A stretch of 64,000 nt of DNA from Candidatus Saccharimonadales bacterium. Lineage in GTDB: Bacteria > Patescibacteriota > Saccharimonadia > Saccharimonadales > UBA4665. Position 1 is the first letter of the stretch, and each line of letters starts with the position of its first letter. The translations under genes were made by a program, and so were the position numbers. The DNA lies in contig DASVRW010000002.1 of assembly GCA_036388415.1 (NCBI GenBank), positions 541,396 through 605,395 on the forward strand, given 5' to 3'. This document shows, piece by piece, positions 8,088 to 35,314 of this stretch. The notes beneath the pieces were generated by a model. The model was not told the DNA's origin. It ran no database searches and saw only the letters and a program-made list of their open reading frames with translations.

Positions 8088-9023
8088 CTAATTATTGTAT
8101 TCACTGTTGGTGCTGGCTTCAATCCGGCGGCGTAGTACCTGCAGCTCGTATTTCCGGCCCAGCCAGAACGTTGACAGTGTCAGCGGCAACGCAAGGAGTG
8201 ATGGAATAATTGAATACTTGGTTTTGGTGACAGTCGTGGTCGAGCCACTTTTGTCATCTTTAGCATTGGTGCTGCTGGAGCCAACGGCTCCGTTCGCAAC
8301 TCCGATCAGCTGCAGATAGGCAGTCGACCCCAAAGAATCAGTTGCCTTGACGATAATCCGGTAGACACCGGCAGCGTCATAGATATGGTCAAAATTTAGC
8401 GTGTCTGCAAACGGCACGCTCTTGAGTGTAACGGGCTTACCGTCACCCCAATCAATACTTATAGCATACGGCCCGACGCCGCCACTGAGGATAATTGGCC
8501 AGGTCAAAGCGTCACCGGGGTTAGCGCCCTTTTTCGCGAAAGAGCTGCTCAGCGTCACCCGGCTGGCAAACGTACCGAATGAGGCATCATTGAAGGTAAC
8601 GTTAACAATATTCGAGTCCGGCCCAGCCTGATCGAGGTCATCAAACACCCGTGCAATCAGTTCGTTCTGGCCGCTAAACAGATCCACCTGCAGGCTATAG
8701 CTACCATTGGTACAGGTAACTGATCCGATAAAAATATTGTTTGAAAACAGTTTTACCATGACGCCCTGCGGACAGAGACCATTGACGGTTACCGGCAGCG
8801 TCGTAAACGACCGGCCGCTCACTGGAGTCGTTATTGTGGCCGCGCGAGTCGGTGGTGGTGAAGATATCGTGCCTTCAAGGCCGACTGAACCATTTTGGGG
8901 ATTTTGCGGCAACGGCGCTGCTGCTTCCACGACGGGGCGCGCCAGCAAAAGCATAGTGCCAATTGACAAAATGGCAGCGCTGAAGGCAATAATTCGCCAA
9001 GAGTGAAATAGTTTTTGCGTCAT
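8088..9023 (-). CDS. Membrane-anchored surface protein with PKD-like domain
   Basis: A 311-residue exported protein with a signal peptide (residues 1-35), a beta domain (residues 60-145, PVSGRSFTTLPVTVNG), and a PKD-like Ig domain at about 150-240 (ISIDWGDGKP, FDHIYDAAGVYRIIVKATD). It ends with one transmembrane helix (YSIIPSLLALPLTLSTFWLG) and a basic cytoplasmic tail. The topology therefore matches the DUF916-like proteins of the same locus: exported head, C-terminal anchor. It is the last gene of the 17041-8088 surface run and is 58 bases from 9082-10248. A TATGGTAAAAT promoter lies just before its start, so it can also be transcribed alone. The PKD fold suggests protein or glycan contact. 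Confidence 0.75.
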   Translation of the reverse strand: MTQKLFHSWRIIAFSAAILSIGTMLLLARPVVEAAAPLPQNPQNGSVGLEGTISSPPPTRAATITTPVSGRSFTTLPVTVNGLCPQGVMVKLFSNNIFIGSVTCTNGSYSLQVDLFSGQNELIARVFDDLDQAGPDSNIVNVTFNDASFGTFASRVTLSSSFAKKGANPGDALTWPIILSGGVGPYAISIDWGDGKPVTLKSVPFADTLNFDHIYDAAGVYRIIVKATDSLGSTAYLQLIGVANGAVGSSSTNAKDDKSGSTTTVTKTKYSIIPSLLALPLTLSTFWLGRKYELQVLRRRIEASTNSEYNN

Positions 9024-9039
9024 AGGAGATTACTTTTAT

Positions 9040-9045
9040 ATTTTA
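9040..9045 (-). promoter_or_regulatory. -10 box of the PKD gene
   Basis: Minus-strand TAAAAT (9045-9040) within TATGGTAAAAT, an extended -10. The leader would be about 10 nt and has no Shine-Dalgarno sequence. Confidence 0.45.
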
Positions 9046-9081
9046 CCATAACCGATATAAAGTTTTGCGTGCGTCGGTCCA

Positions 9082-10248
9082 CTAATACGTCGCGGTTGCA
9101 ATCAATGTCAGCGTCGTCGTGTAGACACCGGCCTCGGTCGTACCGGCGGATTTAGCAGCAAATTCAATCGTACTGCCTGATACATCATTTGGCCCGCTCG
9201 TCTTACCAATTTCTTGACCATAGAGTGTGTTGGTAAATGTTGGGTCAAATCCATGGAATCCAGTTGCACAATCGAACGGAGCTGTTGCCAACTGGTCAGT
9301 ACCCAGCGCGCTAATGCGTAGGCCGAACTGCTCTTCACTGCCGACGGTTGAGTCCTGCGTACAGGCGTTGCCATGCGGCGAGATCGAGAATGATCCCGAC
9401 TTCAGGGTATCACCCTTGATTTTTACGGATACACCGCCAAATGAGTTGCTGGCCACATCGTAATAGGCATTACCAGTATACGTGGTGCTTGTATTGAGCA
9501 AGACGCCGTTAGTATCACCGAGCGCGATTCCCGTACCGCCCGCCGCACAATCGGCGCCGGTATAGACGCAGAAGGTCAGCGTTTCCTGGACCTTGGCAGT
9601 GACGTTCAGCTGGTTGGCGGTACTCAGGGCGATACCACCGGCATCGAGTGAATCTAAAGTTTCACTCCCGCTTCCAGTCGTGCTCGAAAACGTCAGGATA
9701 CGGGCATAAAAAGTCGTATTGTCGTTAGCAGGATTAGTCAGTCCATTGGTCGTGCCGTTACCAAGCGTAAAGCTGACTGGTCCATTAGCAACGGCACCGG
9801 GTGTCCGCGTCAGTACGACTCGGTTCGACGTGCTTGTGCCTTGAGCGGTATTGATGCTAAGCCCCGTTATGTTTCCGGTCACATTATTGAGCGACAATGA
9901 GGCGTAGTTCGTATCAAATCCAGATGCGATACTACAACTATCGCCTATGATCGGGCTGTTGCTACAAAACTCTACAACTACCGAACCGATGTTTTGATTG
10001 TCGGTAACGGTCGTAAAACTCACAGAATAGGCAACGTTGGTGGCAGCACTGGCTGTGCTGCTCATAAGGATAGAGCGGTTGGTAAGTGCGCCGTAAGCGG
10101 ACGCGGTGGCGGGCATAAAACTAAAGATCGCCGAGAACAGCAATATACCAGACATAGCACTATACTGCGCGCGACGTACAACCGTCCTTACCACAGCAGC
10201 CGCCCGCTGTTTGCTTTTGAAATAATCTGTAAAAACTATTCTTCCCAT
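9082..10248 (-). CDS. Secreted two-domain beta protein ending in Tyr (paralogue B)
   Basis: A 388-residue exported protein with a signal peptide ending near ATASAYG. The N-terminal domain (about 55-210) has IGSVVVEFCSNSPI with a second Cys eleven residues after the first, then VVLTRTPGAVANGP and TTFYARILTF. The linker LNVTAKVQETLTF leads to a C-terminal beta domain (220-388) with GDTLKSGSFSISPHG, EQFGLRIS and the end AGVYTTTLTLIATATY. No anchor is present. The closest relative is 12454-13563; long stretches are almost the same at DNA level. The last strands recall WxL or spore-coat-U domains, but the WxL tripeptide is absent. The ATG is two bases after the stop of the DUF916-like gene, so the two are co-translated partners. 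Confidence 0.8.
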   Translation of the reverse strand: MGRIVFTDYFKSKQRAAAVVRTVVRRAQYSAMSGILLFSAIFSFMPATASAYGALTNRSILMSSTASAATNVAYSVSFTTVTDNQNIGSVVVEFCSNSPIIGDSCSIASGFDTNYASLSLNNVTGNITGLSINTAQGTSTSNRVVLTRTPGAVANGPVSFTLGNGTTNGLTNPANDNTTFYARILTFSSTTGSGSETLDSLDAGGIALSTANQLNVTAKVQETLTFCVYTGADCAAGGTGIALGDTNGVLLNTSTTYTGNAYYDVASNSFGGVSVKIKGDTLKSGSFSISPHGNACTQDSTVGSEEQFGLRISALGTDQLATAPFDCATGFHGFDPTFTNTLYGQEIGKTSGPNDVSGSTIEFAAKSAGTTEAGVYTTTLTLIATATY

Positions 10249-10250
10249 GC

Positions 10251-11288
10251 CTAGCGTCTTCGATTTTGTTTTGCTTTTCGGATAATGCTTTCGTTGTAGG
10301 CACGTATCAGTCTTGGAAGAATGAATACTACGAACACGAGGAGTGCGATGACGCCGCCTATCAGCTTGTATGGGATAACGTAAAAGGTCTTTTTGGCGAG
10401 CAGTAATTCCCCATTGCTACCATAGCCGAAGCTAGCTTCTGCGGTGTACTTACCGAAGAATTTTTTATTGCTGACAGGATTACTAAACTTACGAATACTA
10501 GCCGGCAAGATACTGCCCCGGGGCTGAGCATTGTTTATTTCGATCGTCTCTATAATCTTGCCGGAAAAATTCTTAATATATATCTTTCCGAATGGCTGGA
10601 CATGGATATTACCGAAGTTACGGAAACGAGTCTCAACGCTAATCGGACCACTACTGAACAGCGAGCCCAGCTCGTTGTTGTGTGCTACCCCAAAGCTTTC
10701 GATACTGATTTTTTCAGTGATATTGCCGGGGACGCGGACAAGGAAGATTGATCCGACGCTGGCGCTGAGGGCAACGTTTTTGTCATTTTCACCGTTACCT
10801 GGCGAAAACCGGACGGCACCATAGTAGCCGCCGCTGGCAGCCTTGGCGGGAACGCTGAGCGTCACCTTGACTTCGCGCCGTTCACCTGGCTGCAATGTAA
10901 CAGTCGGTAGGTCACTTAGCAGCGACTTAAAGCTATTCCCTGGCGCCCGCTGTGATTCATCCAAAATGATACGGGGTTCACCCGATTCATCGTCGCTCGG
11001 TATAAAATCGTTCGTCACGCCTCGCACCGTGACGGGAGAAGCAGTCACGTTTTCGACAAATAAGCTGACAGTCCGACTCGTCCCTTTATCTATAGTGAGG
11101 TCAGTTCGAACCGGTGCGATCTTCAGACCGTTGCCAGTACCTATTGGTGCGCCTGCCGCTGGGGCCTGAGCTGAGGCGCTGCTGTCAGCAGCAGTCCAGA
11201 TAACACCAACAATCAAGGCACACAGAGTAGCTGCAATAGCTACAGTGCTTCGAGCACGAATCATTCCATTCCTCACAAGGGGCCTCAC
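10251..11288 (-). CDS. DUF916/WxLIP-like membrane-anchored protein
   Basis: A 345-residue protein with a signal peptide, then an Ig-like domain (residues 45-190: GNGLKIAPVRTDLTIDKG, VTLQPGERREVKVTLSVPA, GGYYGAVRFSP), a second domain with RFRNFGNIHVQPFGKIYIKN, one C-terminal transmembrane helix (about 310-330) and a basic tail. This order - exported double Ig-like head, C-terminal anchor - is that of DUF916/DUF3324 proteins, which in Gram-positive bacteria bind both WxL-domain proteins and peptidoglycan. Three more copies are in this window (13713, 36610, 37689). Being wedged between secreted beta proteins, it is probably their cell-surface holder. Assignment to the family is by pattern only. 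Confidence 0.75.
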   Translation of the reverse strand: MRPLVRNGMIRARSTVAIAATLCALIVGVIWTAADSSASAQAPAAGAPIGTGNGLKIAPVRTDLTIDKGTSRTVSLFVENVTASPVTVRGVTNDFIPSDDESGEPRIILDESQRAPGNSFKSLLSDLPTVTLQPGERREVKVTLSVPAKAASGGYYGAVRFSPGNGENDKNVALSASVGSIFLVRVPGNITEKISIESFGVAHNNELGSLFSSGPISVETRFRNFGNIHVQPFGKIYIKNFSGKIIETIEINNAQPRGSILPASIRKFSNPVSNKKFFGKYTAEASFGYGSNGELLLAKKTFYVIPYKLIGGVIALLVFVVFILPRLIRAYNESIIRKAKQNRRR

Positions 11289-11340
11289 GTTTTAGTCTAC
11301 TAAGCATAATGGTAACAAACCCCTAAAGCTTATTCAAGGA

Positions 11341-12429
11341 CTAAAAATTTGCGAGACAGATATAGGAGACAGTGGCGACGTACCTGCCAGGCGGCTGGTT
11401 TGATCCGACGTTGACGATATAGCTCATAGTAAGCTTGCGATAATCATCCGCATTACTACTACTGGCGACGATGTCGCCACTGTTAAATTTGAATATGTTG
11501 GGCGTATTGTAGCCATTAGCTGGATTGATCAGTCCAGGCCCGTTGGGCTCACTGCCGACGGCTGGCGATACGTTTTGGCGAGCATTGACGCCAAATTGAT
11601 TCGTTCCACGCTGCGAAGCCCCGCCCGTCATAGCTGGTATGACATTATTACCGGCAGTCATCGTCGTACCGGCCAGTGTCACACTATAGCCATAGGCTGC
11701 GTTAGTACTGGCTAGCATCTGCGATGTTGCAGACCGCGGCGCTTGGCTTGATAACTCACCGAAACTGATAAAATTGCCGGCAGCCGTTGAGCAGTCATAG
11801 CCATCGATCGTGATACCCGTACAAAATAGTAAGTATGGCGGTACCTCTGTTGTGATACCGATACCTTCAGTCGTCGCATATACGACAATGCCATAATCTG
11901 TTTCGGGGCCGCTGGCATCAGTCGTTACAAATGTGCTGATACGAACATAGCTACTCCCGATGGTGCTCGGGTTGGTGATGTCTGAAAATTCCATTGTCAG
12001 CTGCTGCGGTGAAGCCGGCAAGCTGACAGACCGGCTCAATATGAGCTTATTGCCGGTTGAGGCAGGATTGAGTGTAAAATCTGCAATACCGGTCTGTCCA
12101 GACAGTGTTGCATTACTCGCATCAAATCCGGCGGGAGGCGTACAGGGATCGCCCTGCTCGTATTGGTAATTATCACAAATCTCAAAGGCGACAGAACCGA
12201 TTGAATTGCTGGTATTCGTATTAAAACTAAAATTGTATTTTACATCTGTAGAGCTTACCGTCGCGTCAGACAACTGGAGCTGTCGAAAAGACAACTGAGC
12301 GGCATTCGAAGAACTATACAGCAAAAATGGCACCGCTGCTGCTAGCAGAAGTACCGTCAAACGCGAAACTGCTCTATATGTAGAACGGCGTATGGGCAGA
12401 AGATTCAGCTGTCGTATCCGGCGCAACAT
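11341..12429 (-). CDS. Secreted two-domain beta protein ending in Phe (paralogue C)
   Basis: A 362-residue exported protein with an arginine-rich N-terminus and signal helix (LTVLLLAAAVPFLLY). The N-terminal domain has IGSVAFEICDNYQ with a second Cys, DPCTPPAGFD, as in its neighbours. The C-terminal domain carries a C-x8-C pair around residues 205-215, NAAYGYSVTLAGTTM, RGTNQFGVNARQN and the end GRYVATVSYICLANF. No anchor is seen. It is more divergent than 9082 and 12454, and its C-terminal half is closest to 16304-17041. It follows 12454-13563 by 24 bases, so they are likely one transcript. Confidence 0.8.
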   Translation of the reverse strand: MLRRIRQLNLLPIRRSTYRAVSRLTVLLLAAAVPFLLYSSSNAAQLSFRQLQLSDATVSSTDVKYNFSFNTNTSNSIGSVAFEICDNYQYEQGDPCTPPAGFDASNATLSGQTGIADFTLNPASTGNKLILSRSVSLPASPQQLTMEFSDITNPSTIGSSYVRISTFVTTDASGPETDYGIVVYATTEGIGITTEVPPYLLFCTGITIDGYDCSTAAGNFISFGELSSQAPRSATSQMLASTNAAYGYSVTLAGTTMTAGNNVIPAMTGGASQRGTNQFGVNARQNVSPAVGSEPNGPGLINPANGYNTPNIFKFNSGDIVASSSNADDYRKLTMSYIVNVGSNQPPGRYVATVSYICLANF

Positions 12430-12453
12430 ATGCGTCCTCTCACAGAATTACCG

Positions 12454-13563
12454 TTAATATGTTGCTGTTGCTATCAATGTGAGCGTCGTCGTGTAGACAC
12501 CGGCCTCAGTGGTACCGGCGGACTTGGCGGCTAGTTCAACGACACTGGTCGACGAGTCGGTGGCACCAGCAGTCGATGCTATGTTTTGGCCGTACACCGT
12601 GTTGATGTTTGCAACGTCAAAGGTATGATTGTTAGTCTGACAGCCGTACAGCGGATCAGCCGTTTGGCCAGCGCCAACTGTACTGACACGTAGACCAAAC
12701 TGTTCAGTACCGGTGACTACTACATCTGCGGTACATACAGGACCGTGTGGTGTGATCGAGAATGATCCTGACTTCAAGGTATCACCCTTGAGCTTGACGG
12801 CGACACCGCCAAGGGCATTGCTGGCAAGATCGTAACTGGCAGTATTGGTGTAGGTCGTACTAGTGGAGGATAGTACACCGTTGCCATCGCCCAGCGCAAC
12901 TGCGGTGCCGCCATTGGCACAGTTGATGCCAGTATAGACACAGAAGGTCAGCGTTTCCTGGACCTTGGCGGTGACGTTCAGCTGGTTAGCAGTACTGAGG
13001 GCGACACCACCGGCGTCGATTGAGTCTGCAATCTCATCGCCGGCGCCCGTAGTCGAGTTGAAGGTAATAATCCGAGCGAAGAAGGTCGTATTGGTCGTCG
13101 TCGGATTGGTGACACCGTTGTTCGTGCCATTACCCATTTCAAAGGTTGTTGTACCGTTTGCGACTGTGCCGTTGGCACGAGTCAGTACAAGGCGATTAGC
13201 CGAGCTGTTAGTCGTGTCAATAGTAAGACCTGTAACGTTACCGGAGTAGTTATAGAGCGCCAGTGTCGCTTGGTTGATGTCCATGCCAGTTGGCGGTGTG
13301 CAGGTATCACCGAGGATTGGCGAATTACTACAGAATTCAACCACAACCGATCCGACATTCTGGTTGTTTGTTACCGTTGTAAACGTCACTTTGTAAGCTG
13401 TGTTGGTGGCACCGTTGGCTGAGCTACTCATTTGGATAGATCGGCTGCTGAGCAAGCCATAAGCTGCGACCGGTGCTGGTCGCACTGTCGAGAAGACAGC
13501 CAAAGCAAAGGCGGCTACGACCAACAAGCAACCGGCGCGCTTTACTTTAGTATTAAAAGTCAT
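12454..13563 (-). CDS. Secreted two-domain beta protein ending in Tyr (paralogue A)
   Basis: A 369-residue exported protein with a signal peptide (CLLVVAAFALAVFS), an N-terminal domain with VGSVVVEFCSNSPI and CTPPTGMD, the linker LNVTAKVQETLTF, and a C-terminal domain with GDTLKSGSFSITPHG, EQFGLRVS and the final AGVYTTTLTLIATATY. It is the sister of 9082-10248. It has a GAGGAA ribosome site and its own clear promoter, so it likely heads the 13563-8088 run. No anchor or sorting signal is present; I infer it is held by a DUF916-like protein from the same locus. Confidence 0.8.
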   Translation of the reverse strand: MTFNTKVKRAGCLLVVAAFALAVFSTVRPAPVAAYGLLSSRSIQMSSSANGATNTAYKVTFTTVTNNQNVGSVVVEFCSNSPILGDTCTPPTGMDINQATLALYNYSGNVTGLTIDTTNSSANRLVLTRANGTVANGTTTFEMGNGTNNGVTNPTTTNTTFFARIITFNSTTGAGDEIADSIDAGGVALSTANQLNVTAKVQETLTFCVYTGINCANGGTAVALGDGNGVLSSTSTTYTNTASYDLASNALGGVAVKLKGDTLKSGSFSITPHGPVCTADVVVTGTEQFGLRVSTVGAGQTADPLYGCQTNNHTFDVANINTVYGQNIASTAGATDSSTSVVELAAKSAGTTEAGVYTTTLTLIATATY

Positions 13564-13608
13564 GCTTTTTCCTCATTTTTGTGTTTTAGTTTTTTTGATT
13601 ACAGACTG

Positions 13609-13638
13609 AGTGTACCATAAGCGCTTTAATACATACAA
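13609..13638 (-). promoter_or_regulatory. Promoter of 12454-13563
   Basis: Minus-strand TTGTAT (13638-13633), 18 bp, TACACT (13614-13609). The spacer ends GCTTATGG, giving the extended -10 form TATGGTACACT, the same arrangement as at 16230-16259. Confidence 0.6.
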
Positions 13639-13712
13639 GTATTTATTTGAATTAAGAGTTACTTTCGTTACCTGCTTATCCACATGTACGGTAGGTACGA
13701 CTGCCTCACATC

Positions 13713-14768
13713 TTAGCGACGGCTGGCAGAATAGCGTCGTTTACCGAGCTTACGTACGATCAGCACGACCGTGCCAATTATCAGCAACAATCCGGCGGCG
13801 ACAGCAAGTACAAACCAAACGGGCAAATACCAGAAGCTGACGAGCGAACGTAGTTCATGCGATGAGCTGCCATTATCGCCGTATACAAGCGCAAGCTGGG
13901 CGGTGTAGCGACCGGGGGACATATTAGAATCGTTACACTTCGTCTCTTCGACTTCACGGCCACTCTCCGAGTCATTGCGAGTAATCTTTTGTTCGTTGAG
14001 ACACAAATCAATGCGACGAGTCTGATCTATCAGCACTGTGCTCTTATTTGGATTGGCATTTTCAAATATTTTTATCTTTTTCCCAAAGACGTTTTTGAGC
14101 GCTATGCTGCCTGTTGGCTGCTCGGCCACATTACCTTTGTTGGTGAGGCGGTATGACAAATATTTGGGTGGCGTACCGATATACAATTTGCCGAAGCTAC
14201 CGCTCGTCCCGGTAGAATTTGGCGTAAACGGCCCGAATTTGTTAAGCAGTAATACGTCGTTGGCTTCGCCCGGCACCCGCACGAAGACGAGTGTTGCACT
14301 CGAGCTCGTTAAGCTCACATTATTATTGGCCGTGTCGCCACCCGTAGTTGAGTATTTGATAGCACCGTAATAGCTACCGGCACCAACTTTGGCCGGTATG
14401 GCAATCGTGAATGGCAGCTGGATAGACTTACCAGCTGGTACGCGGACATTGCTCGCAATAGTCAAATACGGCTTTAGGGACCAGCGTGTTGGCTCTTTTT
14501 CGGTGAGCAGCAGCTTGGGAGAACCTGTTTCATCCTGCGGACCAAAATCTATCAGCTTGATATCGATAACAAGATCGTCAGTTTTACTCAAATTCGAGAC
14601 GCTGAGTACATCACTCACCTTCTCTCCCGATTTAATGGTATAGTCACGCCGCGGATTAACTCCAAGGCTGTTGGACGCCGCAGATGCTGGCATTGTTGGA
14701 GTGAGCATAGTAGACAGCAATACAAAGACCGCTATACTAGAATAAATTTTCGTTCGCAAATGTCGCAT
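13713..14768 (-). CDS. DUF916/WxLIP-like membrane-anchored protein
   Basis: A 351-residue protein: signal peptide (IAVFVLLSTMLTPTMPASA), first Ig-like domain (LGVNPRRDYTIKSGEK, then VPAGKSIQLPFTIAIPA, then AGSYYGAIKYST), second domain (YRLTNKGNVAEQPTGSI, then PGRYTAQLALVYGDNG), one C-terminal membrane helix (about 315-340) and a basic tail KLGKRRYSASRR. Two Cys near the end of the second domain are not seen in the other copies. The strong GAGGAAA before the ATG and a separate promoter suggest independent control. It sits between secreted beta proteins 12454 and 14920. I infer a surface scaffold role like the WxLIP partners of WxL proteins. Confidence 0.75.
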   Translation of the reverse strand: MRHLRTKIYSSIAVFVLLSTMLTPTMPASAASNSLGVNPRRDYTIKSGEKVSDVLSVSNLSKTDDLVIDIKLIDFGPQDETGSPKLLLTEKEPTRWSLKPYLTIASNVRVPAGKSIQLPFTIAIPAKVGAGSYYGAIKYSTTGGDTANNNVSLTSSSATLVFVRVPGEANDVLLLNKFGPFTPNSTGTSGSFGKLYIGTPPKYLSYRLTNKGNVAEQPTGSIALKNVFGKKIKIFENANPNKSTVLIDQTRRIDLCLNEQKITRNDSESGREVEETKCNDSNMSPGRYTAQLALVYGDNGSSSHELRSLVSFWYLPVWFVLAVAAGLLLIIGTVVLIVRKLGKRRYSASRR

Positions 14769-14802
14769 ATTTTCCTCTTTGTTACAAACTCGTGTCCCGA
14801 CT

Positions 14803-14831
14803 ATTGTAGCAAAAGACGCGACTTATTAGAA
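14803..14831 (-). promoter_or_regulatory. Promoter of 13713-14768
   Basis: Minus-strand TTCTAA (14831-14826), 17 bp, TACAAT (14808-14803) preceded by TGC (extended -10). Confidence 0.5.
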
Positions 14832-14870
14832 TAAGCATTTTGTCAAAACGGCTATATCATATTTAAAATA

Positions 14871-14896
14871 CAACAGCCCTCATATGAGGGCTGTTG
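14871..14896 (-). terminator. Intrinsic terminator of 14920-16188
   Basis: A perfect 26-bp palindrome (CAACAGCCCTC with its reverse complement around CATATG) lies 23 bases after the stop of 14920-16188. It is followed in the minus direction by TATTTTAAAT. Confidence 0.8.
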
Positions 14897-14919
14897 ATGT
14901 AATCACTTACATTTGATGT

Positions 14920-16188
14920 TTAGAATGTGGGTGTTGCGATGTAACCAATAGTTGTCTTGTAAACACCAGGCTTGGTTACCGGGCTAATGTTCGCGACATA
15001 GCGTACAGAGCCAGTATCGCATGCAACCGTCGTGCCGGTCGTTGCGCTAGCTATTTGTACAGGCGACGTCATACTTGCAGTATTGAAGGCGAAGTTAGCT
15101 GTGCCCAAGTTAGTTATAGTACCTGCAGCCGCAGCATACGGCGAGGTGGCTACGAGGTTTGTAAAACTATGGCCGAACAGCGTTGTATCATCCGTATCAA
15201 TACCTAGACCGAACTGAGAAGTACCCACTTTGCTTTGTTCTCCAGTAGCTAGAGCTGCAGCAATAGAATTTGTTCCACCAGCTGTCTTTAATGTATCACC
15301 AGTATAGGACACGACGGTTCCATTGGCTGCATTAGTGCTGAGGCGAAAGTAAGTGTGATTGTCATATGCAACTGACGTATCAAGCACGCCGCCGGAACCA
15401 AGCGTAATCGCACCGGTACCCGTCAGAGCCGCACAGCCGGCGCCGGGATCCTGATTTTTAGCTGCCGAGACGCTGAAGTTCAGCTTTTCCTGGACTTTGG
15501 CGGTAATATCGATGTTTTCGTTCACCGAGCCAGCGACTGCGGCTGCATCGATCATGCTGGCTGTCGTGTAGGTAGTATTACTGAAGGTGTAGATACGGAC
15601 ATAGAACGTACCAACGGCAGTTGGGTTCTGAATCCAATCGGTGCCGGTACCCTGTCCGAAGGCCAGCGATATTGCCTGACCAGCAGTAATATTCGTACCG
15701 CTCGCACGTTGCAGCGTGATACAGTGTGCCCGGCTCGTACAAGGGTAGGTCGCGAAGTAATTACCCGTCGTTACGCTCGTAGTCGTGTCGAGCGTAAATG
15801 GCTGAGCACCACCACCCGATTGAGTGGCAACGGAAGCGACAGTGCCGGTATTCAAGCCAGTTGGCGCCACACAGGTGGTATCAAGTAGTGGCGTCGTACA
15901 GTATTGCAGTAATACGGATTGAACTGTTCCAGCAGTACCAATCGAAAAGTCAAAGGTGTGCCGAGCGAAAGCACCGTTGCCGCCAGAACCTTTGGCGACG
16001 GTAGCAGCGTTGGCGTCAGTAGATATGTCACCCTTTGTTTGGCTGCTCATAGTCAGCTTGCGGGGTGAGAATTGCCCTGCAGCAGAGGCTGAGCCGGATA
16101 TCACTACCGGTGCAACGGTAGCAACCGCAAAAGCAAACGCAGTCAGCGCGCTGCCGCTGCGGCCGATAAGGCGTTTAATAGAATTCAT
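14920..16188 (-). CDS. Secreted two-domain beta protein ending in Phe (paralogue D)
   Basis: A 422-residue exported protein with a signal peptide ending near SASAAG. The N-terminal domain (40-235) has FSIGTAGTVQSVLLQYC, a second Cys after a short loop, and TFYVRIYTF. The linker IDITAKVQEKLNF matches the LNVTAKVQETLTF linker of 9082 and 12454. The C-terminal domain has GDTLKTAGGTNSI, SQFGLGIDTDD and ends PGVYKTTIGYIATPTF. It has its own promoter, an AAGGAG site and its own terminator, so it is a single-gene unit and may be the most strongly expressed of the set. No membrane anchor is present. Confidence 0.8.
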   Translation of the reverse strand: MNSIKRLIGRSGSALTAFAFAVATVAPVVISGSASAAGQFSPRKLTMSSQTKGDISTDANAATVAKGSGGNGAFARHTFDFSIGTAGTVQSVLLQYCTTPLLDTTCVAPTGLNTGTVASVATQSGGGAQPFTLDTTTSVTTGNYFATYPCTSRAHCITLQRASGTNITAGQAISLAFGQGTGTDWIQNPTAVGTFYVRIYTFSNTTYTTASMIDAAAVAGSVNENIDITAKVQEKLNFSVSAAKNQDPGAGCAALTGTGAITLGSGGVLDTSVAYDNHTYFRLSTNAANGTVVSYTGDTLKTAGGTNSIAAALATGEQSKVGTSQFGLGIDTDDTTLFGHSFTNLVATSPYAAAAGTITNLGTANFAFNTASMTSPVQIASATTGTTVACDTGSVRYVANISPVTKPGVYKTTIGYIATPTF

Positions 16189-16229
16189 GGTTTCTCCTTG
16201 TTAATTTTTGTTTTTTGGATTACTTAGGG

Positions 16230-16259
16230 ATTTTACCATAAGCATTCTTGCATTTGCAA
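16230..16259 (-). promoter_or_regulatory. Promoter of 14920-16188
   Basis: Minus-strand TTGCAA (16259-16254), 18 bp, TAAAAT (16235-16230), with the extended -10 form TATGGTAAAAT. Confidence 0.65.
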
Positions 16260-16282
16260 TAGCGCTTATGCAAATTTGCAAG
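16247..16282. repeat. Imperfect inverted repeat over the -35 of 14920-16188
   Basis: CTTGCATTTGCA (16247-16258) faces TGCAAATTTGCAAG (16269-16282), a two-base insertion apart from perfect symmetry. It covers the -35 box and could be an operator. Confidence 0.4.
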
Positions 16283-16303
16283 TTGATCTATGCGGCTATG
16301 TAG

Positions 16304-17041
16304 TTAGAAGGTAGGCACAACATTGATAATCAACCTGCCGCCGTACGCGCCTGCTTCAGTTGTCGTGCCGATATTGGCTATCATTGACATCGTGTAATCA
16401 GTTTGACCGCTGCTCTTGTTTGACGCGGCGATAAGGTCTCCTGGCACGTATTTGAAATTATTAACTGCTGAGTACCCGGCGGATGGAGCACCGAAACTAA
16501 ACGTACCACTCGGAATCTGGGCCACGTCGGCACCAACAGCCGGCGACGTATTGAGCCGTAGATTAATGCCGAATTGCTCTATACCAACCTGCGAAGCAGC
16601 CGCAGTACTCATTGGCGTCAGTGCATGACCGCCGACACTGCGCGGCGTTGTACCGTCGATATATACGTTGTAGCCGGAAGCGAGGTACGACTTAACGGCA
16701 AACGTCGTACTTCCCTTACCGGTTGTCTCGGGCGTCAGATCCCCAAGGTTAACGACCGCACCGGATACGCTAACCTCCAGGAAAGGTTCACGCTGCGTAT
16801 TAAACCCGCCCTGGGCTTGATAGTTCGTACTGCTGGTATTCCCGACTGTCAATTCGCCGGCAGATTGCTTGGCACAGTAACTGGTGGAGCAGGCCCGTAG
16901 GACGCCACCGCTGCCGAATTGTACCTCGCTGACGCCATAATTCGAGGATTTAGCCTGTGACGCCATGACTGTCGGGGTATACGACAGAGCAGTCAGCGTA
17001 CTGAGCAGGAATGCAGCTAGTATTTGTTTTGGCTTTATCAT
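16304..17041 (-). CDS. Secreted beta protein ending in Phe (paralogue E)
   Basis: A 245-residue exported protein with a signal peptide ending near TVMASQA. A short N-terminal segment, SNYGVSEVQFGSGG, resembles the SYGVGSGG and SYGFGSGG motifs of 1038-2111 and 34256-35314. The remaining domain has FLEVSVSGAVVNLGDL, SGYNVYIDGTTP, EQFGINLRLNTSP and ends AGAYGGRLIINVVPTF. It lacks the larger Cys-pair N-terminal domain of its neighbours, so it is a C-terminal-domain-only member. It is divergent from the fibre gene at 17158. A TATGTATAGT cluster lies directly before its ATG. Confidence 0.8.
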   Translation of the reverse strand: MIKPKQILAAFLLSTLTALSYTPTVMASQAKSSNYGVSEVQFGSGGVLRACSTSYCAKQSAGELTVGNTSSTNYQAQGGFNTQREPFLEVSVSGAVVNLGDLTPETTGKGSTTFAVKSYLASGYNVYIDGTTPRSVGGHALTPMSTAAASQVGIEQFGINLRLNTSPAVGADVAQIPSGTFSFGAPSAGYSAVNNFKYVPGDLIAASNKSSGQTDYTMSMIANIGTTTEAGAYGGRLIINVVPTF

Positions 17042-34255: not shown

Positions 34256-35314
34256 ATGAAAGTATTTGGATTTGATTGGCTCGGTGGCATCGGTGGACTG
34301 TCCGCGGGCCTTGTGCTGTTTAGCGCGCTGCCGGCAACACCCAATTATCAGCTCAATAGCTACGGCTTCGGCAGCGGCGGTGTTTCTAATGCCACCACCA
34401 GTACCTACGCACTAGAGGGTACAACTGGTGAGCTCAGTGGCTCAAACGGCGCAAGTTCGACGGCGGCGTACAGCCTAAAACCAGGATTTACTCAGACCCA
34501 GCAGGCCCAGGTGCCAAAATTATCGGCGTTCGATAACGGCAGTAACACCTATTACAACAAGTTGCATTTCGTCATCGACACCCAAAGTAATCCATCTGAC
34601 GCGCTGTATGCGCTCAGCATCAGTACCGACAATTTTAGTAGCGACATTCGTTATGTCAAAAGTGACTTAACGGTTGGCTCCAGCCTGGTTGTCGCCGACT
34701 ATCAGACTTATGCTGCGTTTGGCGGTGCCAGCGGTACCAATATCATCGGCCTGACCCCAAGCACAACCTACTACGTTCGAGTCAAAGCTACGCAGGGCAA
34801 ATTCACCGAATCTGCTTTTGGTCCGGTCTCAAGCGCAACTACCGTCGGATCCAGCGTGTCCTTTTCTGTATCGACCAATGCCGTCACTATGGGTGCGCTG
34901 CTGCCCTCGATCGTCACCACTGGAGCGCCGGCCGTAAACATTACTTTCGCGACCAATGCGGCCTCTGGTGGCGACATCTATATTAGTGGCAAAAATATCG
35001 GATTACTCAGTACGAAAGCTGGCGTAACCATTCCTTCGGCAACAGGTGATCTGAGCTCACTGCAGCGAGGTTATGGCGCCCAGGTAGCAAGCGTCGGAAC
35101 AACGACAGGAACACTTCTTCGGGTCAGTCCGTACGACGGAGGTGCAAACAACGTTGGCGTTACAGATACAGTTATTCGGCGCATCATAACGGCAACAGGC
35201 CCGATTGCCGGAGGCACTGGATCAGTGGTATTCAAAGCCAAAGCAACTGCAACTGATGCGGCCGCCAATGATTACAGCGAAGTCAATACCATGCTCGCCT
35301 CTGGAAATTTTTAA
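34256..35314 (+). CDS. Secreted surface protein with fibronectin-like domain and C-terminal Phe
   Basis: A 352-residue exported protein: signal helix (LGGIGGLSAGLVLFSALPA), a YQLNSYGFGSGG motif, a fibronectin-III-like region (IIGLTPSTTYYVRVKATQG) and a C-terminal beta domain ending NDYSEVNTMLASGNF. It is the paralogue of 1038-2111 along the full length. No anchor is present. The stop codon lies inside an 18-bp AT palindrome (35304-35321) of unknown meaning. It lies downstream of the tethered partner 33468-34076, the reverse of the gene order at 404-2111. Confidence 0.8.
   Translation: MKVFGFDWLGGIGGLSAGLVLFSALPATPNYQLNSYGFGSGGVSNATTSTYALEGTTGELSGSNGASSTAAYSLKPGFTQTQQAQVPKLSAFDNGSNTYYNKLHFVIDTQSNPSDALYALSISTDNFSSDIRYVKSDLTVGSSLVVADYQTYAAFGGASGTNIIGLTPSTTYYVRVKATQGKFTESAFGPVSSATTVGSSVSFSVSTNAVTMGALLPSIVTTGAPAVNITFATNAASGGDIYISGKNIGLLSTKAGVTIPSATGDLSSLQRGYGAQVASVGTTTGTLLRVSPYDGGANNVGVTDTVIRRIITATGPIAGGTGSVVFKAKATATDAAANDYSEVNTMLASGNF

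Follow-up and report, generated by a model that had tools for sequence, protein, structure and literature searches.

A run of eight genes on the minus strand of a Candidatus Saccharimonadales genome was identified as a probable Pam pilus locus of a Saccharimonadia-type Patescibacterium. It extends from position 17041 down to 8088 of the window, which here means the whole stretch analysed (64,000 nucleotides (nt), C2:541396−605395 of a 1.14 Mb genome that is 99% complete). The run encodes PamT, PamR, pilin-like secreted subunits and two membrane-anchored proteins with two immunoglobulin-like (Ig) domains, referred to below as holders, which probably serve the secreted subunits as a chaperone and anchor of the WxLIP family. 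With each protein designated by its lower coordinate, the gene order is PamT (16304), subunit 14920, holder 13713, subunit 12454, subunit 11341, holder 10251, subunit 9082 and PamR (8088), with stop-to-start gaps of 115, 151, 149, 24, 52, 2 and 58 nt. With gaps this short (2−151 nt), the run has the appearance of an operon. It is flanked on one side by MnmA and on the other, as read from the sequence, by ATP synthase genes. Given its recurrence across a sample of the phylum, the arrangement is far beyond chance.

All of the open reading frames (ORFs) on which the original prediction was built exist on the minus strand at the coordinates given, and 9082 and 10251 are indeed separated by 2 nt. 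Hydropathy analysis agreed with its division into five anchorless secreted proteins, each with an N-terminal hydrophobic segment and no C-terminal membrane helix, and two C-terminally anchored proteins, in which a C-terminal helix is followed by basic residues. The predicted interval contains a real run, but one component of it had been left unnamed: PamR (8088−9023), a third anchored protein, probably also held by its C-terminus. The five secreted proteins are beta proteins.

Three models with curated cut-offs in NCBIfam release 20 (June 2026) identified the locus: PamR (NF058578, 300 bits), PamT (NF058579, 240 bits) and Pam pilin C (NF058581, 55 bits). The protein 8088 scored 411 bits as PamR and 16304 scored 325 bits as PamT. 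Pam pilin C was matched by all five secreted proteins (95−164 bits) and by no other protein of the genome. The locus thus resembles the Pam pilus of the candidate phyla radiation (CPR), in that six of its eight genes pass curated cut-offs and the order PamT, pilins, holder, PamR is that of Saccharibacteria. The accession between the PamT and pilin models, NF058580, is an unrelated lipase model. In Pfam the locus proteins gave weak matches only, and no NCBIfam model covers either holder. The secreted domains had been taken for a new type, but they already belong to NF058581. Of the parallel display system that had been proposed, the pairing of WxLIP-like holders with secreted proteins stands; the secreted domains, 8088 and 16304 were already named as parts of a CPR Pam pilus. 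These existing names make a fibre a more likely product than singly displayed proteins.

Profile and fold comparisons show the holders to be remote but real homologues of WxLIP, the proteins by which gut Firmicutes hold WxL adhesins on their surface. An AlphaFold2 model of 10251 (11-sequence alignment, mean pLDDT 78) contained beta sandwiches at residues ~55−163 and 178−304 and a helix at 307−344. When this model was compared with all solved structures using Foldseek, the best match was the Enterococcus faecium WxLIP 9i1y (E 4.7e-12), followed by 9i25, the E. faecium WxLIP bound to a long WxL protein (E 3.4e-11). Further matches included the chaperone-usher chaperones CfaA, CsuC, Caf1M, EcpB and DraB, and RbmA. 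With hhalign, the holder profile aligned to Firmicutes WxLIP (DUF916-DUF3324) with Prob 98.7 and E 1.9e-16 over 266 collinear columns, covering both domains and the transmembrane (TM) helix, while control pairs gave nothing. The Firmicutes WxL/WxLIP clusters were taken from plasmids and found with a synthetic consensus-like DUF916 query, which was used solely for retrieving annotated loci. PF06030 matched nine of 11 holders individually (best E 2.5e-6). For 10251 the match was borderline when the protein was taken alone (25.3 bits by hmmscan against a cut-off of 27.3) and reached 28.5 bits with its neighbours in the genome search. The DUF916/WxLIP-like, Ig-type character that the original prediction had given to these proteins was thereby confirmed. 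Among 114 holders, 113 had a C-terminal TM helix and 103 an N-terminal hydrophobic segment. The 13713 protein scored 349 bits (E 7e-105) against the A2 holder profile, a model built partly from 13713.

The likeness to Firmicutes WxL/WxLIP clusters (PF13731; PF06030 and PF11797) extends to architecture, namely a signal peptide, two Ig domains and a TM segment, with homology over both domains and the TM segment, and a secreted anchorless partner adjoins the holder. The retrieved Firmicutes loci mostly had the same order, WxL then WxLIP. The motif NQIDKxxxYFDLK, present near the N-terminus in the Firmicutes alignment (A5), was absent from the holder alignment (A2), which, together with the lack of a PF11797 match, indicates that the holders are a sister group and not ordinary WxLIP proteins. 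Matches of the holder profile to the ‘Pizza’ designed propellers looked strong but were dismissed as one low-score 34-residue match repeated. A degenerate DNA pattern for the WxLIP motif NQxD...YFD retrieved 31 stretches from viral contigs, all unrelated. No open paper was found that joins DUF916 with Patescibacteria.

The two-Ig fold of the holders, and beta subunits with a conserved aromatic C-terminal strand, are also features of chaperone-usher pili (PapD/Caf1M/CsuC/CfaA). An usher-free, chaperone-usher-like pathway of independent origin, in which the likeness to WxLIP would reflect shared Ig folding only, was considered very improbable. The chaperones CfaA, CsuC, Caf1M and EcpB do rank after WxLIP in the fold search, and the aromatic C-terminal strand recalls the C-terminal motif of chaperone-usher pilins. 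Such an origin leaves the profile homology to WxLIP, collinear through both domains and the TM helix, without explanation; moreover, no usher (PF00577) match was found in the genome, and the holders are membrane-anchored whereas chaperone-usher chaperones are soluble.

The secreted subunits are marked by their C-terminus. The last residue was Phe or Tyr in 113 of 116 distinct proteins with a Pam C-domain, and in 107 the domain ended exactly at the C-terminus. Other long ORFs of the same loci ended in Phe or Tyr in 18% of cases, a background that is probably inflated by unrecognized relatives. Twenty genomes with a holder but without a Pam C match provided an out-of-sample comparison. Seventeen of the 21 genes 5' of a holder in these genomes ended in Phe or Tyr, and 19 had a signal-like N-terminus. 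The rule of a secreted beta protein with an aromatic end beside a holder therefore reaches beyond the named Pam family. A C-terminal TM segment or LPXTG motif was found in none of the 116 proteins. This contradicts an assignment of the locus to sortase-polymerized pili or to type IV pilus accessory genes, a reading given almost no credence and rejected. Two sortase-like genes are present in the genome, at more than 270 kb from the locus, and type IV pili do exist in Saccharibacteria (PMC12206443), but none of the eight proteins matched a type IV pilin family in Pfam or NCBIfam. In genomes of other Patescibacteria families (G164, G241, G248 and G359), the Pam pilin C-domain was also seen in reading frames of 2,684−4,565 aa, and the holder system may also retain giant adhesins of this kind.

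The survey of the phylum covered 380 Patescibacteria genomes. The pilin domain was found in 85 and the holder profile in 171, with both in 82, so that the pairing, anticipated for related genomes, was present in 82/85 (Fisher p ~1e-30, not corrected for relatedness). Adjacency, which is independent of any such correction, pointed the same way: in 49 genomes a holder on the same strand began 8−226 nt downstream of the subunit domain. PamR exceeded its cut-off in 15 genomes, all of the window genome's order, with strong scores in two more of its class. The subunit-holder pair thus occurs throughout the phylum, and the complete Pam locus is characteristic of Saccharimonadia. In other Saccharibacteria loci, a gene like the divergent 17158 is followed by PamT, two subunits, one holder and PamR. 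By comparison, the window locus is an enlarged version, having two holders where those loci have one and four two-domain subunits where they have two. The counterparts of the canonical subunit and single holder are 11341 and 10251. Judging from the sequences, 9082 and 12454 (62% identity by blastp) are a more recent duplicate pair and 13713 (28% identity to 10251) is a second, divergent holder. A contig from Moranbacteria (L021) carried a PamT-like protein, a subunit and two holders with no PamR.

Based on these results, a mechanism is proposed in which the subunits would be exported by the Sec pathway. Tethered to the membrane by its C-terminal helix, the holder would grip the C-terminal beta domain of a subunit, the last strand of which nearly always ends in Phe or Tyr. 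Binding would probably occur by the holder lending a strand to an incomplete subunit beta sandwich, as predicted for WxLIP and WxL and as PapD-type chaperones do. Chaperone-usher chaperones insert a strand into pilins in the same way. For WxLIP, a hairpin strand is predicted to insert into a gap of the WxL sandwich (PMC10599100). The holder would thereby fold and retain the subunits, which would be kept at the surface or passed into a thin fibre. Having one C-domain with a short N-terminal extension and the first position in the run, PamT may start, tip or cap the fibre, and its fixation or regulation at the membrane may fall to PamR. Usher-free donor-strand fibres are established in archaea and for Bacillus TasA (PMC9715654). 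The archaeal threads (Saci_0406) and TasA offer a working model of an exported beta-subunit fibre formed by strand complementation in a monoderm (PMC9715654), although no sequence link was found, and the chaperone-like gene that accompanies the subunits here has no identified counterpart for the threads.

The secreted proteins could instead be held singly on the wall or membrane by the holder, as in Firmicutes, with ‘pilus’ an over-call by NCBIfam. This static display was judged rather unlikely. In its favour, the holders are genuine homologues of WxLIP, published work describes WxL proteins as displayed on the surface and bound to peptidoglycan and WxLIP (PMC10599100), and the Pam C-domain in the 2,684 and 4,565 aa frames of other families suits display better than polymerization. 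It accounts less well for the excess of subunits over holders (5:2 here and 3:1 in relatives) and for two subunits being near-duplicates, and it is at odds with the naming of the family as a pilus system. The subunit excess and the NCBIfam naming together favour a fibre.

Several observations weigh against the assignment of a chaperoned Pam pilus. The Pfam model PF11797 (DUF3324/HBD) matched no holder and nothing in the genome, despite the collinear alignment of the second Ig domain of the holders with WxLIP in both hhalign and Foldseek. The AlphaFold2 model of 11341, all-beta with two domains, had a pLDDT of 80 and a low pTM of 0.52. When its fold was searched, MSCRAMM, Als and integrin Ig-like proteins matched with low TM-scores, which was uninformative, and there was no convincing solved relative, and subunit sequence profiles gave no match to the sequences of solved structures. 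Nothing at the N-terminus of the subunit looks like a separate donor-strand extension, and the strand there (E5-9) is predicted to belong to the fold in the 11341 model. No source publication for the names Pam, PamT and PamR was found in the open literature, also among work on RbmA-like or non-type-IV pili of Patescibacteria, and because of this ‘pilus’ is taken as a curator's label and not as a demonstrated fact. Lastly, the evidence here consists of genes and predicted structures; physical binding of the subunits to the holder, strand donation, polymerization into filaments and a role in attachment to the host cell are inferred.

Homology between the Pam C-domain and the WxL domain is suggestive but unproven at the level of sequence profiles. 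As had been stated in the original prediction, no W-x-L tripeptide was present in 9082, 11341, 12454, 14920 or 16304, and searching the genome with PF13731 (WxL domain) gave nothing up to an E of 10. Together with the lack of a PF11797 match, this sets the locus apart from Firmicutes WxL/WxLIP. The window subunits end in an aromatic residue, in contrast to the ...DAP-like tails of Firmicutes WxL domains. The subunits have a motif of the type TNAxxGYxITV and a terminal GTYTTTLTYICTPTF, compared with GTxxGWxLxVKQ and AxxYTTTLTWxL in WxL domains. Intermediate-looking sequences were seen among holder partners, namely GYTVSVKQDG (L108), GWIAWAKNAN (35414) and a Trp at position −7 in four proteins, while single holder-adjacent proteins with GWxLxV-like motifs gave no PF13731 match. 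In a permissive hhalign comparison, Pam C and WxL were collinear over the whole domain, with both WxL Trp residues aligned to conserved Tyr; Prob was only 2.6−9, and the score 20−23 compared to 12−14 for reversed controls. The WxL HMM matched 26 family proteins at E up to 10 (best E 0.046), compared to at most 12 in 20 column shuffles. A tentative explanation, which we hold possible without favouring it, is that the Pam C-domain is the patescibacterial form of WxL with both Trp residues replaced by Tyr. Pam pili and the Firmicutes WxL-WxLIP clusters would then have branched from a single old pathway, with the beta sandwich of the secreted subunits being completed by a WxLIP chaperone anchored in the membrane. 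If true, WxL proteins may polymerize too, and the pathway would be the monoderm equivalent of chaperone-usher assembly, with which Patescibacteria throughout the phylum make surface contact.

The coordinates of the locus and of related genes in the window are collected in the table.

Table. Genes of the putative Pam pilus locus and of related sets in the window
Feature	Coordinates	Strand	Description and evidence
PamR	8088−9023	-	Signal peptide, Ig/PKD-like domains, C-terminal hydrophobic helix and basic tail; NF058578 CPR_pilus_PamR; PKD weak (Pfam)
Pam subunit	9082−10248	-	N-domain and Pam pilin C-domain; end ...TLTLIATATY; NF058581 95 bits
Holder 1	10251−11288	-	WxLIP-like two-Ig protein, signal peptide, C-terminal TM helix; PF06030, AlphaFold2 and Foldseek, hhalign
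Pam subunit	11341−12429	-	Canonical pilin, directly 5' of holder 1; NF058581 164 bits; AlphaFold2 all-beta two-domain model
Pam subunit	12454−13563	-	Paralogue of 9082; NF058581 109 bits
Holder 2	13713−14768	-	WxLIP-like, C-terminal TM helix; blastp 6e-28 to 10251; PF06030 14.5 bits
Pam subunit	14920−16188	-	Directly 5' of holder 2; end ...TIGYIATPTF; NF058581 106 bits
PamT	16304−17041	-	First gene of run; short N-terminal region and one Pam pilin C-domain; end ...VPTF; NF058579, NF058581 162 bits
Divergent neighbour	17158−18141	+	N-terminally anchored repeat protein with terminal head; recurs next to the main Pam loci that have PamR
Paralogous set, secreted protein sharing PamT N-terminal motif	34256−35314	+	End ...SGNF; blastp to PamT residues 34−85, 33%, E 3e-4
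Paralogous set, secreted subunit-like	35414−36496	+	End ...GAAAF; GWIAW at motif-1 position; recruited into the same family by iterative profile search
Paralogous set, holder	36571−37692	+	A2 profile E 6e-105, model partly built from 36571; blastp to 10251 E 8e-16
Paralogous set, second holder	37689−38672	+	Start overlaps previous stop; A2 profile E 1e-97, model partly built from 37689; PF06030 21.6 bits
Third set, first gene, secreted subunit-like	1038−2123	-	Its subunit and two holders just outside window (L012 8113−11701); ORFs, phmmer, blastp

The divergent gene 17158 starts 116 nt from PamT and belongs to no family; a counterpart lies divergently next to PamT in the Saccharibacteria loci with intact flanks. 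Its product has an N-terminal membrane anchor, a repeat stalk and a terminal head ending ...YDYIVVG, with a weak bactofilin match, and could be a co-regulated fibre protein. With the sets at 34256−38672 and from 1038−2123, the holder-based surface systems of the genome number at least three, and the one at 8088−17041 alone has the full Pam gene set. The 34256−35314 and 1038−2123 proteins were 42% identical (blastp). A small exported protein (33252−34076) precedes the 34256−38672 set, and its paralogue (404−1060) accompanies the third. Large repeat-rich secreted proteins also adjoin the paralogous holder sets (38780−42943 on the plus strand and L012 4702−7956), the former weakly matching the N-domain of the mosaic adhesive trimer fibres of Bdellovibrio. 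Further along the plus strand, 43589−45892 encodes an exported protein of 767 aa that combines fibronectin/Ig-like repeats with a ResA/DsbE-like thioredoxin domain at its C-terminus.

Three results appear to be new within the literature searched: the tie between the Pam genes and WxLIP, the terminal-aromatic rule, and the occurrence of the pair throughout the phylum. Little is settled about how host-dependent Patescibacteria recognize and hold on to host cells, and studies of their filaments have focused on type IV pili. The prediction for N. lyticus was of two type IV pili and a type IV secretion system only, and its 3.2 nm thick fibres were assigned to T4P-1 by elimination (PMC12206443). If Pam loci occur in cultured strains, this assignment needs rechecking. 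The terminal-aromatic rule, a secreted beta protein ending in Phe or Tyr immediately 5' of a WxLIP-like gene, can be applied to the annotation of many unnamed secreted proteins of the phylum. The link from the Pam genes to the WxLIP-WxL pair, of which a complex has been solved (entry 9i25), yields a concrete and testable assembly model: a two-Ig chaperone anchored in the membrane would grip the aromatic C-terminal strand of a subunit. The model suggests how an ultrasmall, host-dependent bacterium could build or anchor its surface fibres without the usual machinery.

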